Shown here one piece after another: positions 1,535-36,127 of a DNA stretch of 51,025 bases (the stretch's first letter is position 1; the number at the start of each line of letters is the position of its first letter). A program made the translations under genes and the position numbers. Source of the stretch: Terramyces sp. JEL0728 (Eukaryota > Chytridiomycota > Chytridiomycetes > Rhizophydiales > Terramycetaceae); NCBI GenBank assembly GCA_027603945.1, contig JADIIU010000094.1:1-51025 (forward strand). The letters are read 5' to 3'. Below the pieces are notes generated by a model, which worked only from the letters and a program-made list of their open reading frames with translations, searched no databases and was not told the origin of the DNA.

Positions 1535-1937
1535 CAATCCACCAAAAATTCGATACGCTCAGAAGCTACAATAACGATACTTAATATCCATCTGTTGTTG
1601 GCAATCTGTTAAAAAGTAATTCCAGTGTGTGATCTAGCTGGTAGAAGGCTCTGGTATACAGATGTTCTTAATTAAAACCATTTCTGTCGCAATATTTCAA
1701 TATCAATGTTGGTTTATTCTAATACGCCAAAATCAGCTTTGAAGGTGGTAGATCTATAGTTGGGATATTTTTAGGAAACCAATTTATTACTATTTTTGAA
1801 GTTGATGATCTATATTCCGTCCAGTTCCGCTCAAAGAATTGTTACCAAATTGAGTAGTAACTCGCTATTTTGCTGAATAAATTCAAGCAATATCCAACTC
1901 TCGAAATATTTTCGCGTGTCATTTCTTCCCCCCTAAT
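1535..1937. other. spacer between the small gene and 7TM copy B
   Basis: AT-rich, with no convincing ORF on either strand. It contains a small palindrome (cgaaa-tat-tttcg, about 1893-1905) just before the tandem repeat resumes at 1921. It presumably holds the copy B promoter. Confidence 0.4.
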
Positions 1938-3007
1938 ATGCCAGGAATTGAACTTTCATCGGACCAACTCAGAGCGCTTTACATATTTAGTAACCTATTC
2001 GTAACCAGGTTTTGTATGGTCAGGGCTAAACGCCATCCTAGTTTCAATATTACTGTCCAACTACATCTACAAAATCATAGGAACGCCAGTAGCAAGATAC
2101 CAGATACTTTTTATTTGTTTGAACCTCGCATCTATTATAGCACTAATCTTCAACATTGTCGGGATTGTCACACAGAGTGGAACAACGTTTTTTACCTGGT
2201 TGTTGGGTTTGATGTTCTTTTGTCACAATACATTTACGGATTTGATAGAATACGAGATACTGCGTGTGATTCTGAATCTGTTTGATAACCTTACTGAGAG
2301 AACGGTGAATGTTATCCAGATTGTGTCGGTTTTCATCAATTTGTTCCTAGGATGGAGTTCTCTAATAGGGCCGTATATTAGTACACTCGGGATATCTCCG
2401 ACCTCCGCATTAAGTCTAGTAACCATATTTACTAATATAGTACATGGGATCTTCATTTTTTGCTCATGTAGTGTATGTAGCATTTCACGTGGTGATTCAG
2501 TCCTTTATCGTAATGTCCAAACTAGTGGCATTCCACAAGAAAAGCCTGACGCTATTTTCATTGTCGAACGACCAGCAAGCAATTTCTAGTTTGAAGCAAA
2601 GAACAATATATGCTGTCATCTCCATCTTGCTCTTCCTAATTTTTTGGATTGGCACTCTGGTCTTCTTTTCCGTCCAATCCATTAACAATACAGTTTCAGA
2701 TCAGGTACTACTGGTAGGTGGGCTAACGAATTTGATTCATGGCACCCTGGCATTCTGCAACTTGCTGTTTTCGATGAAAGTGTACTTTTTACAAAATATT
2801 GCTATTGGGTCTGGGAGACCGTCCACCATTACTCCTAGAAACAGCGGTTCAAGTAATTATACAAGCAATCCTTCAATGAATCGCAAATCATCTTCAGACT
2901 CAAGTGGCGAACCAAAGCTACCTGTAACAAGTTTCGAAATACAGCCAATGATACCTGAAGAAAGCAGGTCGTTAACAGAACTCGATTTGAACGATATCAT
3001 AGTTTGA
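1921..3007 (+). repeat. second unit of a tandem duplication (first unit at 1-1090)
   Basis: Positions 1921 onward match 1 onward with a constant offset of 1920. Identity is complete over about 1-104, 160-372 and 427-673. It is interrupted by diverged patches at about 105-159 and 373-426, and similarity drops after 674. The first unit begins at or before the window edge. Alternating identical and diverged tracts suggest gene conversion after duplication. Confidence 0.9.
1938..3007 (+). CDS. seven-transmembrane protein, copy B (candidate GPCR-like)
   Basis: Exons 1938-1989, 2009-2418 and 2441-3007 give 342 aa, with the same two intron positions as copy A (1990-2008, 19 nt; 2419-2440, 22 nt). 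The seven TM segments are kept. The last third (from TM6 onward) and the Ser-rich tail have diverged from copy A, while the N-terminal two thirds are almost identical and both introns are identical. Most early differences are synonymous or conservative (I to L, S to Y), as expected for two working genes. The convergent biotin gene ends 43 bp downstream. Confidence 0.75.
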
Positions 3008-10799: not shown

Positions 10800-14934
<4,135 letters not shown>

Positions 14935-19635: not shown

Positions 19636-19750
19636 AATTATATTTGTCATGGCCCATTTTTACCACTGCTAGGCGGTTATTAACCCATGCTATCGCTATC
19701 AAAGTGCCACCATTTACTACACGTCACTTTTCAAATCCACCCATACCAAT

Positions 19751-21076
19751 ATGGACAAGATCAAATCAGTGTATACTTGCTACTAACTAAAGGGTATTTA
19801 ATTTGCGATACACCTCGTCCAAAATAGTGGTAGTCAAAGACTTTCGCCTCGCGCTAATCTACTATTCTGCACTGATATTAATCACTGCATATATCATCTA
19901 CAACATGGTATATACCACTAATCAAGTTATCTTCTGGAAGCTATATGGAATTGCTATCCCCGGTAGGAGGATCCGTCCGGACAACTGTGAAATTTGGACT
20001 GCCACTCTCTACAAACACTCCTTCCTACTGCGCACCAGGTATATACCATGTAATCGAGGCACATATAACTCTGATGGCTGTATTTTCTGGACCCCAGATC
20101 AAATTGTATTCCCGTACTCTGGAGAACAAGGGGTATTATTTATCACGACAAGAGTGTCAATTACAAATATTCCAGCACCAACAAACTGCAGCCTCTCCAT
20201 TCCTACTTCAAGAGCCTGTTCCGGAAGCAATGTTAGTGGAATCAAGAAAACATACTACGTCTCGGATGTAGAATCGCTCACCATCCAAGTTGACCACACG
20301 TATCTAAAGCTAATGGTAGTGTCAGAGTGCAAAGTACGTATGGGTTTGGATCCGCTGCATTCAGAACAGTTGCTTCACAAAATATGACTGGACAGATGGT
20401 GCGTTCTTGCGATAAAGGACCGCTCGGATTTGGAGTTTATGACAACAATTACAGAACTACCAGACCATTCAACACTGCTTTGGATATTGTGAGTTTTTCA
20501 CAGCTGATGGAATCTGGCAACTGTCAAAAAGGGAATTTCAGTTTGGACGCTGTATCTACAGCGGATAGTGCTGGACCAAATGAAACTATCCGTTCAAATG
20601 GTTTGATCCTATCTAGTAATTTTTACTAACAAAGTGCCTATTTCTTACAGCAATGCCGGAGGAGATATTACCTATAAATATTTACCAGCAAATATCGATG
20701 GATCTTACTTTAAGCTGGAACAGATTCAATACAACGCAGATGGATCCTACACCATCTTCGATCGCCACGGTGTCAGAGTTATTCTTGTCCAAACAGGCAC
20801 AATAGGAATATTCAATTTTATTGCTCTGATTATGAATTTCGTTGCTGGATTGGCTCTATTTTCAATCGCTGGTTCTCTAGTAGACTTTTTAATGATCCAC
20901 TTCTTGCCAGACAGAAGAAATTATGTCGAAGCTAAATTTGAAGGTAACCAAAAGTAATGGTAGAAACAGATGATTTTTTGAAAGCCGTTGAGCGGGAAGT
21001 GAGTCGGCGAACTTCCAAATCGAAAGGGAGAGAAAAACAGGGCGAGGAAAGCCTTGAAGTCGTAAAGTCTCAATAA
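19751..21076 (+). CDS. P2X-type ATP-gated cation channel, paralogue 1
   Basis: Exons 19751-19770, 19793-19907, 19927-20038, 20059-20299, 20320-20615, 20635-20943 and 20964-21076 give 401 aa, the usual P2X length. TM1 (LALIYYSALILITAYIIYNM) follows SSKIVVVKD; an ectodomain with several cysteines contains VESLTIQVDHT; then HGVRVILVQTG leads to TM2 (FVAGLALFSIAGSLVDFLMI) and the YxxxK trafficking/gating motif NYVEAKFE. P2X subunits form trimers gated by extracellular or vacuolar ATP. The lysine expected before the GxR motif is replaced (DRHGVR), so ligand binding may differ. Six introns, three of them missing in the neighbouring paralogue. Confidence 0.88.
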
Positions 21077-21173
21077 AATTGGTTGCTGTTATTTTTCAAA
21101 ATGGGTACTGTAATGTGCCTCGTGAAATTCGGTTTTTTGCTTTTTGAAATTTCCAGAGTAATTCAAGAAACAA

Positions 21174-22494
21174 ATGGATAAAGTAGCAAAATTGTAAATG
21201 TTTCCCTCACCTAGTGTCAAGAGCTTTAGTTATGCTTCAGCCAAGATTGTTGTTGTCAAGGATTACCGACTTGCACTTATCTACCATTCGGCACTACTCG
21301 TCATAACGGCATTTATTATATACAATATGATTACCACAGGTAGTTATATGGAGTTGCTATCACCTGTTGGCGGTAGTGTGAGAACAACGGTGAAATTCGG
21401 TAACGGGAATCCAACAGCTACTCCTGCATATTGCACGCCAGGTTTGTTGTCAGTAACTTAGGTCCGTTCAATCCTGATGGGTGTCTATTTTGGACTCCAG
21501 ACCAGATAGTCTATCCTTACGCTGGAGAACAAGGAGTATTGTTTATTACAACCCGTGTTTCAATTACAAATGTTCCGTCCCCGTCTGGATGCAATTTATC
21601 AATACCGGCTTCAAGAGCTTGCTCTGGAAATAATATTCAAGGGAAAAAAAAGACTTATTTTGTTTCAGACGTAGAGTCGTTGACTTTCCAGATTGACCAT
21701 ACGGTGCGCGTTCAGAGTACGTATGGGTTTGGATCGGCAGCGTTCAGAACTGTTGCTTCACAAAATATGGTTGGGCAATTTGTGCGTTCTTGTGATAAAG
21801 GACCGCTCGGATTTGGAAATTACGATAACAGTTACAGACAAGCAAGATCGTACAATACTTCTTTGGATATTGTTGGTTTTTCGCAAATTATGGAAGCTAG
21901 CTATTGCGGTTCAGGCAATTTCAGTTTGGATGCCGTATCTACTGCAGACAGTGCTGTGCAAAACGAGCCAATTCGATCTGACGGTTTAATTGTTTCTGGT
22001 AATTTTTTATTTACATAGTTCCTATTTCGTACAAAAACAGCGGCTCTGATGTGCAATATAAATACCTTCCTGCCGAGATAGATGGGTCATTTTTCAAGTT
22101 GACTGAAATCCAGTACAACGCCGATGGTTCATACACGATTTTCGATCGCCATGGGGTAAGATTCGTGTTTGCCCAAACTGGAACTATTGGCATCTTCAAT
22201 CCATTGGCATTCATGATGAACGTTGTCGCGGCACTCGCTCTGTTTTCAATCGCCGGTGTTTTAGTCGATTACATCATGATATATTTCCTGCCAAACAGAA
22301 AGAATTACAGTGAAGCAAAATTCGAAACTGCAGAATTCAAAGAGCTTGTAGAAAAGGAAATTCAAAGACAGGCGTCGTCTGTCCTGCAAACTATGGACCG
22401 AGAAGAACTGGAAAAAAGAGTCAACGGCACTCTTCGGGAAGCCAAAATAGAAGAATACAGGGAAAGTCAATACACTATTATTCAAAATATATAA
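21174..22494 (+). CDS. P2X-type ATP-gated cation channel, paralogue 2
   Basis: Exons 21174-21193, 21215-21441, 21462-21998 and 22019-22494 give 419 aa. The start MDKVAKF matches MDKIKSV of paralogue 1 with the phase-2 first intron conserved. It shares GSYMELLSPVGGSVRTTVKFG, GEQGVLFITTRVSIT, VESLTFQIDHTVRVQ, TM2 and the YxxxK-like NYSEAKFE. The C-terminal tail is longer and charged (EKEIQRQ..REELEKRVNG), predicted cytosolic coiled coil. Tandem with paralogue 1 (97 bp gap), so a local duplication; sequence divergence is large enough that it is not recent. Confidence 0.88.
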
Positions 22495-34844: not shown

Positions 34845-36127
34845 ATGAGGAGAAACAGAATCTTGAAATACCTGCTATTCTGTTCAATCCCACTGGTAAT
34901 TTTATACACCCTAAGATTCAAGCAGGAACCATGGGCAACACATGAATTATACACTGAACTAAAACAAGAGTTCCAACATGTAAAACAAAATATACTGAAA
35001 GAGCCGATACCCACATACAATGGAAATGGAATAGTAATGACCTTGACAGACAAATCAATCAATCTGACAATCCTTTATTTGAACCACTTGCAAAACCATT
35101 TGAAAACTGAACTGCCAATTCAAGTATTTTACAACCAGGATGAATTTACAAAATTTGATTTGTTGAATGTCGAGTATCAAGAATTCAAGACTGAAGGGTA
35201 TCTGTTTCAGAAAGGATCGAGCAGTATTAAGCCATTTTACTACAAGAATTTAGCAATATTGCAATCCAGGTTATTCTGCTGTAATATAGGTAATGGTATT
35301 GTTAATGAGGTATACGAAACTCATGTAGATTTGAAAATGTATTATTTCTGGATCAGGATAATTTAGTTTTGAGGAAACCAGACTTCATATTTGATTCCCC
35401 CGAGTTCAAGTCTACTGGAATGATAGGTTATTGTTGCTGATATAGGCAAGTCTGGTTCTAATATAGGTAAGACCTTTTACCAACGATAGGTACGGGCAAC
35501 AGTAATATTAGGTAGAATAAGATTAACGGTAGGTAAGAAGAAACTAAAAAGTTTGGAAAGATAATTTCATCAACAAGTGCTCAACTCCTTTATACAAAAT
35601 ACTGGATTTACCCTGCCATTTCGAATTTGAAAAGGAATCTGGACAATTCTTGGTAAACAAATCCATTCATTACCATTCACTAAGATTATCAACATATTTA
35701 ACGCAACATGACAGGTATCAACAAGACAAGAGGATGCTGTATGGAGACAAAGATACCTTTCACTTGTCAGCGGATACCTTGGGATTGAAATACCAAACAA
35801 TACCATCCGCTATAACCCAAGTCGGTGACTATAATAATGGAATGTGCGGATACGCAATGTTACAAAGATGGTTTGATGATCAACCGCTTTTCCTTCACAC
35901 TAATGGATTAAAAGGAAGAAAGAGTTGTGCGAAATTAGATTACTATTCTGTTCCTATATTTTATCTAGGAGGAATGGATTTTGATTATGGCGGCGAGAAA
36001 GGATGTAATAGGTATAAATTTGGTTCATTTCATTACAAGATCCAGGAAAAGTAATTTGTATTAACTTGGATGGCCCGAAATATTTAACCAAGATTTCTTT
36101 GATTCAATCCCTAAATCTAGCTGTTAG
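34845..36127 (+). CDS. MNN1/MNN2-like (GT71) Golgi mannosyltransferase with stacked introns
   Basis: Exons 34845-35269, 35329-35426, 35552-36050 and probably 36070-36127 give 359 aa (341 aa if the stop at 36054 is used). A short cytosolic basic N-terminus and one TM (ILKYLLFCSIPLVILYTL) make it a type II Golgi protein. After removal of a 59-nt block the frame reads KNLAILQSRFENVLFLDQDN (DxD-like catalytic motif). After a 125-nt block it reads PEFKSTGMIVWKDNFINK, matching the FKSTG..W.D pattern of alpha-mannosyltransferases; FEFEKESGQFLVNK, QVGDYNNGMCGYAM and FDYGGEKGC follow. Its job would be adding mannose to glycoproteins or cell-wall mannan. Both blocks consist of stacked mini-introns. Confidence 0.85.
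35270..35328 (+). other. array of three tandem mini-introns
   Basis: Units: gttattctgctgtaatatag (35270-35289), gtaatggtattgttaatgag (35290-35309), gtatacgaaactcatgtag (35310-35328). They abut exactly with no exon between. Removal of all 59 nt restores LQSR-FENVLFLD of the mannosyltransferase. Confidence 0.8.
35427..35551 (+). other. array of six tandem mini-introns
   Basis: Units at 35427-35445 (19 nt), 35446-35466 (21, GC-AG), 35467-35489 (23), 35490-35511 (22), 35512-35532 (21) and 35533-35551 (19). Each begins GT (one GC), ends AG and has a branch-like tgat, taat, caac or taac. They tile the 125 nt with no remainder, and removal of the whole restores FKSTGMIVWKDNF in frame. Confidence 0.8.
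36051..36069 (+). other. third candidate GT-GG intron (mannosyltransferase 3' end)
   Basis: gtaatttgtattaacttgg. Splicing it replaces the stop at 36052-36054 by a protein-like tail KWPEIFNQDFFDSIPKSSC ending at 36127. The end acttgg is the same as in the biotin-gene intron. No homology test is possible from here. Confidence 0.4.

Follow-up and report, generated by a model that had tools for sequence, protein, structure and literature searches.

A gene for a putative mannosyltransferase in the chytrid Terramyces sp. JEL0728 (order Rhizophydiales) is interrupted by 125 nt that divide into six consecutive units, each with the ends of an intron and with no exon between one unit and the next. The sequence supports reading this block as an intron array whose removal the protein requires, and the arrangement is not unique in the genome. 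We consider it likely that the six units are working U2-type mini-introns, separated by zero-length exons, that would be removed in successive rounds. For the genome as a whole, we think it reasonably probable that this fungus carries serial arrays of two to perhaps ten introns of about 20 nt per site without exons between them, that these are spliced separately and in any order, and that units are being gained and lost at present. That a fungus has introns of about 20 nt is remarkable in its own right. Should every unit be spliced, a single position of the mRNA would go through at least six splicing rounds, and the arrays would test how small and how close together spliceosomal substrates can be.

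Six Units in Series in a Mannosyltransferase Gene

The window (contig C94, the whole stretch of 51,025 nt under analysis) belongs to a genome of 15,016,339 bases in 231 contigs. Within it, the 125 nt at 35427–35551 on the forward strand have a single tiling into GT/GC..AG units of 17–26 nt, namely 19 + 21 + 23 + 22 + 21 + 19, and the coordinates and sizes given in the earlier note proved exact (Table 1). The tiling was also unique at unit sizes of 15–30 nt, and 13 tilings appeared once units of up to 45 nt were allowed. All six units end in AG, and five begin with GT and unit 2 with GC, as had been claimed. When the interior of the block was shuffled with the first GT and the last AG held fixed, none of 20,000 dinucleotide shuffles and none of 20,000 mononucleotide shuffles tiled; this comparison had been named beforehand as one of the refuting tests, and the real block does tile. 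One chain of four AGGT at a spacing of 15–28 nt was found on the two strands of the window, against none in 100 shuffles.

The units were scored with an intron model with flexible branch position, trained on 124 introns (Table 1). Single introns under this model have a minimum of 5.5, a 5th percentile of 9.7 and a median of 12.6; four of the six units fall below the 5th percentile and none below the minimum. A 39-intron model, whose training set lacked any array intron, gave 4.99, 8.29, 7.01, 6.26, 7.36 and −0.45 for units 1–6, placing three of the six under the range of the training set (mean 10.3, minimum 6.5). Unit 6 has the lowest score of the six and yet bears the outermost acceptor. The earlier note had described a branch-like motif in every unit, which describes units 1, 2, 4 and 5 well (branch match 4.0–5.6); the matches in unit 3 (−0.2) and unit 6 (0.5) are weak.

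Joining the three exons flanking this block and a second one upstream, with 125 nt and 59 nt removed, yields a stop-free protein of 341 amino acids that matches the Pfam family Mannosyl_trans3 (PF11051) with an E-value of 2.7e-34. Ten homologs were recovered at E ≤ 0.001 among 493 candidate proteins, the closest from the chytrid Kappamyces sp. JEL0680. All seven rows of a seven-sequence alignment run without a gap at both joins, and pairwise BLASTP alignments were gap-free within 5 residues for 10/10 homologs at the three-unit join and 8/10 at the six-unit join. This result, with the intact frame, agrees with the earlier description of flanking exons that join in a conserved way. Retention of at least one of the six units would introduce a stop codon in 60 of the 63 possible combinations; the three combinations free of stops retain unit 2, unit 5 or the two together, which adds 7 or 14 residues to the protein. 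The ten homologs include no Terramyces protein, and perhaps the arrays broke the public gene model.

It is highly improbable, in our judgment, that the tiling arose by accident in a repeat, a misassembled stretch or a broken gene. Identical units are error-prone in assemblies and do occur in some arrays on C128 and in repeats on C25, but the units of the six-unit array are not mutual copies, no shuffle reproduced the tiling, the reading frame is unbroken and its conservation extends over both mannosyltransferase joins, and the same pattern recurs in conserved housekeeping genes. Translational bypass, DNA elimination and a pseudogene were likewise set aside, since splice signals recur in each unit and the frame is conserved.

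TABLE 1. Exons and array units of the mannosyltransferase and SMC3 genes in the window (unit scores from the 124-intron model).
Feature	Position	Strand	Details
SMC3 predicted gene model, provisional start codon	11066..14931	+	one 2-unit array and 11 single introns, 19–22 nt
SMC3 two-unit array, unit 1	11200..11219	+	20 nt, GTTTGTAGAATTAATATTAG
SMC3 two-unit array, unit 2	11220..11239	+	20 nt, GTGCATTTATGTTAATTCAG
Mannosyltransferase exon 1	34845..35269	+	Pfam PF11051
Three-unit array, unit 1	35270..35289	+	20 nt, GTTATTCTGCTGTAATATAG
Three-unit array, unit 2	35290..35309	+	20 nt, GTAATGGTATTGTTAATGAG
Three-unit array, unit 3	35310..35328	+	19 nt, GTATACGAAACTCATGTAG
Mannosyltransferase exon 2, between both arrays	35329..35426	+	reading frame, homolog alignment
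Six-unit array, unit 1	35427..35445	+	19 nt, GTTATTGTTGCTGATATAG; score 9.1
Six-unit array, unit 2	35446..35466	+	21 nt, GC donor, GCAAGTCTGGTTCTAATATAG; score 9.5
Six-unit array, unit 3	35467..35489	+	23 nt, GTAAGACCTTTTACCAACGATAG; score 7.9; branch match weak
Six-unit array, unit 4	35490..35511	+	22 nt, GTACGGGCAACAGTAATATTAG; score 10.0
Six-unit array, unit 5	35512..35532	+	21 nt, GTAGAATAAGATTAACGGTAG; score 11.4
Six-unit array, unit 6	35533..35551	+	19 nt, GTAAGAAGAAACTAAAAAG; score 6.1
Mannosyltransferase exon 3, TAA at end	35552..36054	+	reading frame

Two Further Arrays in the Window

The second array of the mannosyltransferase gene (35270–35328, 20 + 20 + 19) was absent from the earlier note. 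Twenty-one of 20,000 dinucleotide shuffles of this block tiled, one of them scoring as well as the real sequence. Unit 1 of this array and unit 1 of the six-unit array have a similarity of 0.59, which is no evidence of copying, since 110 of 7,626 pairs of single introns equal or exceed it. A two-unit array in SMC3 (11200–11239), also missing from that note, sits between AIR and FVLGD; two PDB SMC3 chains align gap-free across the join when the first 321 residues are compared. All 11 units in the three arrays of the window, which measure 40, 59 and 125 nt, have a GT donor (one GC) and an AG acceptor.

Gene finders recovered these arrays to different degrees. A run on the window that predicted 79 introns, some surely false, with a mode at 19–21 nt, recovered the three-unit array but only unit 1 of the six-unit array. 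Two earlier runs did not call the six-unit array, and a length-blind scan called neither of the mannosyltransferase arrays. All six units were recovered in another gene-model run, in which the mannosyltransferase was fused to the next gene with a false 17-nt intron at 36023.

An Intron Population Centered on 20 Nucleotides

All intron calls reported here are predictions of models built in this analysis. A length-blind gene finder was applied to the window and to twenty 10-kb stretches (251 kb together) and returned 181 introns, including 30 of 19 nt, 56 of 20 nt, 28 of 21 nt and 8 of 22 nt. Their motif is GTAAKT, followed by YTAAY ending 4–5 nt from the end and then TAG. Calls of 27–160 nt accounted for 52 of the 181, and just two of these tile; the remaining 50 we took, judging by eye, to be mostly false joins of separate genes or frames, though some introns longer than 26 nt may be real. 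A permissive model in which any intron of 17–200 nt competed gave 1,433 introns, mostly spurious, and was discarded.

Parts of a U2-type splicing apparatus are encoded in the genome, including U2 snRNA (140.2 bits) and SF1 (SF1-HH, 66.2 bits). A U2AF-large-like match of 251.7 bits fell below the family cut-off of 310.3 in a six-frame search, in which the match is broken up by introns.

Arrays Elsewhere in the Genome

A genome search for further AG/GT-tiled arrays, a check proposed in advance, found arrays of three to seven units at other loci. In the loci scanned there are 18 arrays of at least three units, two with seven units, two with six, one with five, eight with four and five with three, as well as six two-unit arrays. 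These counts rest on partial sequence of the genome, and most of the loci were drawn by an array-seeking pattern with 48 matches, compared with 24 in a backward control. A gene-model run over the same loci gave an equal unit number for 15 of the 18 arrays; it found six of the seven units at L004, split L025 otherwise and left L016 (on C51) outside any gene. Delimited by hand, the C51 array extends to about nine units and may include a tenth; two of the nine have low scores (2.7 and 2.9). The longest AGGT chain, at C91:18567–18768, has ten boundaries spaced 21–23 nt, judged on positions alone.

Sequence chosen without this pattern also contains arrays. In the unbiased 200 kb, there was one array of three units and one of two units. 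The whole 251 kb holds two pairs, two triples and one sextet, where shuffles gave 0.8, 0.1 and 0, respectively; three of these five arrays lie in the window, and the two-unit arrays show no clear excess (2 vs. 0.8).

A simpler search, for three AGGT with 15–21 bases between them and no branch requirement, gave 230 matches genome-wide and 724 in a backward control, so the count alone shows no excess. Among 100 listed of the 230 triples, however, a branch match was present in both units of 43, in one unit of 22 and in neither unit of 35, where shuffled interiors would lead us to expect both in 1.9 ± 1.4; the triple search escapes the bias of the array-seeking pattern for the branch site only. 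The 43 branch-matched triples fall into 31 loci, some of which are near-identical copies. Repeats of identical units at C25:18172 were rejected as an array; they are absent from the 43 and look like coding repeats. A cluster of AGGT chains on both strands was noted at C128:21693–23334, several with identical or near-identical units, and C27:90556 and C27:117269 form a segmental duplicate about 26.7 kb apart; both copies have the same intron pair, which differs in length by 1 nt.

By Pfam or PDB match, genes with arrays encode SMC3, topoisomerase I, USP7 and proteasome alpha-6, as well as proteins with TPR, WD40, ING, VLRF1, dynein heavy chain N-terminal, CBS, LRR_9 and TB2/DP1 domains. Some of these genes are essential in other fungi. 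Homologs are gap-free at the array join in 119 of 120 cases for topoisomerase I and in 118 of 120 for proteasome alpha-6; the one alignment for USP7 has no gap at the join and a gap about eight residues downstream. Topoisomerase I, chosen for a check of all intron sites since it bears an array, has six sites in its conserved part (the array and five single introns of 19–21 nt), at which 111–119 of the 111–120 covering homologs are gap-free.

The translated genes can be compared with public Terramyces sp. JEL0728 proteins. Topoisomerase I read from C17 is 98% identical to its public counterpart, and the proteasome subunit read from C30 is 100% identical (96% of the query covered). Each of the two public gene models treats its array (64 nt in topoisomerase I, 81 nt in the proteasome gene) as one intron, and both also accept single introns of 19–20 nt. 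A 21-nt stretch that we call an intron is treated as coding in the public topoisomerase I model, and 119 of 120 homologs are gap-free without it. The arrays may account for errors at such places in some public gene models of this strain. In the public topoisomerase I of Boothiomyces macroporosus, four additional residues lie near YDVINQGKPV, where Terramyces has its array, and these may perhaps represent a part-retained array in a relative.

Splice Signals and Proposed Removal of the Units

Internal and outer splice signals were compared in 17 arrays of at least three units, leaving out the C51 array, whose ends are uncertain. The branch score was 3.94 for the 52 distinct non-last units and 3.93 for the 17 last units, against 4.54 for single introns and −0.91 ± 0.36 for shuffled interiors. 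Donor positions 3–6 scored 0.41 at internal donors (51) and 0.23 at first donors (17), a comparison that favors internal units because the array-seeking pattern (A at donor position 3, T before AG) was combined with a score threshold; the references here are 1.65 for single introns and −2.06 ± 0.36 for shuffled sequence. Internal and outer sites are therefore alike in strength, and array units are somewhat weaker than single introns (3.9 vs. 4.5 for the branch, 0.4 vs. 1.65 for the donor). In the 18 arrays, only 7 of 60 pairs of adjacent units exceed the 99th percentile of between-array pairs, and most neighbors are unrelated. That unrelated units all keep their signals suggests that each unit is used, and we infer that selection is the reason why the internal signals persist.

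We propose that units of about 20 nt are recognized by U2-type spliceosomes through intron definition. Every unit has a putative donor, branch site and acceptor of its own, spaced as is usual for this genome, and is probably removed separately, so that several rounds of removal would occur at one position of the mRNA. Since every junction is AG|GT or AG|GC, any unit could be taken out in any order and leave a valid junction, which would make the order irrelevant and an exon between steps unnecessary. The array would remain spliceable until the exons meet, in the six-unit case as ATAG|TTTGG. An AG before each internal donor is a good exonic context for U1 pairing, and each internal acceptor is followed by G. 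Complexes of the size of the spliceosome are unlikely to engage two adjoining 20-nt introns at once, which would imply serial removal.

The 125 nt might instead leave the transcript as one intron, in a single step that uses the first donor and the last acceptor, with the internal AG|GT junctions as unused remnants of duplication or insertion. We regard this as unlikely, even if it would require fewer spliceosome cycles, has GT and AG at the outermost sites, and accords with public models in which a single intron spans the 64-nt array and another the 81-nt array. The match of internal branch sites and donors to the outer ones, in units that are mostly unrelated, speaks against it, as does the recurrence of both branch matches in 43 of the 100 listed triples where 1.9 were expected. 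Introns above 26 nt may exist elsewhere, given that 50 of the 52 long calls do not tile, but the intron-length distribution has a sharp peak at 19–22 nt. A single long intron would moreover use a poor end, because unit 6 has the lowest score and a weak branch match (0.5). Stepwise excision is the reading we favor, on the grounds that internal signals equal the outer ones.

Turnover and Origin of Units

Two near-identical loci differ by one unit of an array. The array on C56 consists of GTTTTTGTGATTAATCTCCAG, GTATTAGATTGGCTAATCTCCAG, GTACACCCAACTAATCTCCAG and GTACATTGGAATTAATAAAG, and in its counterpart on C37 the third unit is present twice. The next array lies 513 nt away on C37 and 492 nt away on C56; one 21-nt unit makes up the difference, and apart from one base in the strings compared that next array is the same on both contigs. 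Over the 3.5 kb before the array, measured from a string common to C37:31706 and C56:24857, the lengths differ by 29 nt. These are near-identical copies with a one-unit difference, be they alleles or duplicates and be the change a gain or a loss. Identical neighboring units were also seen on C30 (three in a row) and C90 (two), and near-identical ones on C48. The identical neighbors and the one-unit difference between C37 and C56 point to tandem duplication of whole units. We suggest that arrays gain and lose complete units, in part at least through tandem duplication of one unit, and that the units would then diverge while keeping their splice signals.

The six-unit array itself is less telling in this respect. 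Its adjacent pairs have similarities of 0.30, 0.18, −0.07, 0.16 and 0.20, all below the between-array 99th percentile of 0.535, and unit similarity reveals no copied neighbors within it. Since neighbors within it resemble each other no more closely than units taken from different arrays often do, insertion and old duplication followed by divergence both fit. The earlier note had proposed a zero-length-exon array made by repeated insertion; the array is borne out by the tiling, the protein frame and its recurrence, and for the insertion part old duplication fits as well. An origin of the array by repeated insertion of unrelated introns into AG|GT, for example by reverse splicing, in place of tandem duplication, is a possibility that we hold to be somewhat doubtful. 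The absence of any adjacent pair above the 99th percentile in the six-unit array would agree with it, whereas the identical or near-identical neighbors on C30, C90 and C48, the two near-identical loci that differ by one duplicated unit, and the greater mean similarity of adjacent units (0.254 in 60 pairs, vs. 0.154 for units of different arrays) argue for duplication. Neighboring units of arrays range from identical to unrelated.

AG|GT junctions would make an array neutral to its number of units, so intron gain could be caught at a high rate with the protein unchanged. The arrays also make intron gain directly testable, because strains and alleles can be compared for their number of units.

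Comparison With Known Systems

The mini-introns of chlorarachniophyte nucleomorphs, at 18–21 nt, are similar in size to those of Terramyces, in a different lineage and type of genome, and we know of no intron arrays in these nucleomorphs. In the ciliate Stentor, introns are 15–16 nt long and GT-AG, with a near-fixed distance from branch site to acceptor; most intron-bearing genes have one intron, and the part of the report available to us does not mention back-to-back arrays (PMC9505925). Terramyces is a fungus with introns mostly of 19–22 nt, and it has in common with Stentor the GT-AG ends, a near-fixed distance from branch site to acceptor and a size far below that of usual introns.

A parallel to removal without an exon is found in the ratchet points of recursive splicing in Drosophila and vertebrates, which have 0-nt exons at which AG|GT abut, so that each step regenerates a donor (PMC8605326). 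Terramyces arrays share with ratchet points the abutting acceptor and donor, and they would work in a similar way on a far smaller scale, leaving nothing in the mRNA. However, ratchet points as described there lie inside long introns, of about 73 kb in the case of Ubx, and involve a cryptic exon with its own donor that is recognized first (PMC8605326), whereas in Terramyces complete introns of about 20 nt abut in coding sequence, where a cryptic exon would not fit. The arrays of the window are 40, 59 and 125 nt long with the next unit following immediately, and they lack the long intron and downstream cryptic exon of a ratchet point.

Stwintrons are, like the arrays, fungal and composed of several U2 units, and they are excised consecutively, with an inner intron interrupting the donor, branch or acceptor of an outer one (PMC7138796). 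No unit of a Terramyces array interrupts another; all are complete and in series. The six-unit array is no stwintron, since its only tiling at 15–30 nt is serial and its units are complete.

Introns can also be gained when a segment that contains AGGT is duplicated in tandem, as the AG|GT junctions yield a new intron at once; what is copied there is an exonic segment or an exon-intron boundary (PMC4974935). In the Terramyces arrays a whole intron unit would be duplicated beside itself, so that no exon is added. Units that are copies of adjacent AGGT-bounded sequence are seen on C30, C90 and C37/C56, and none is visible in the six-unit array. In titles and abstract openings of the literature, with subscription papers and preprints mostly outside the search, we found neither exonless tandem arrays of complete spliceosomal introns nor, within the same scope, 20-nt introns in a chytrid.

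Other Features of the Window

A tRNA search of the window found none, and a search for plasmid DNA gave no match. On the reverse strand, 5186–3614 (open frames to 5252 and 3051) has AAA_26 and class-III aminotransferase domains in one gene, which looks like a fused biotin-synthesis enzyme with a dethiobiotin-synthetase-like AAA_26 part. Positions 1–1090 and 1881–3007 on the forward strand are tandem gene copies that are, by eye, near-identical over much of their length, and they have in common a predicted 22-nt intron, GTAACCATATTTACTAATATAG, identical in both. A second tandem pair of paralogs, at 19748–21073 and 21165–22488 on the forward strand, has six and three predicted introns, respectively, and this difference in number offers a chance to study intron gain or loss.
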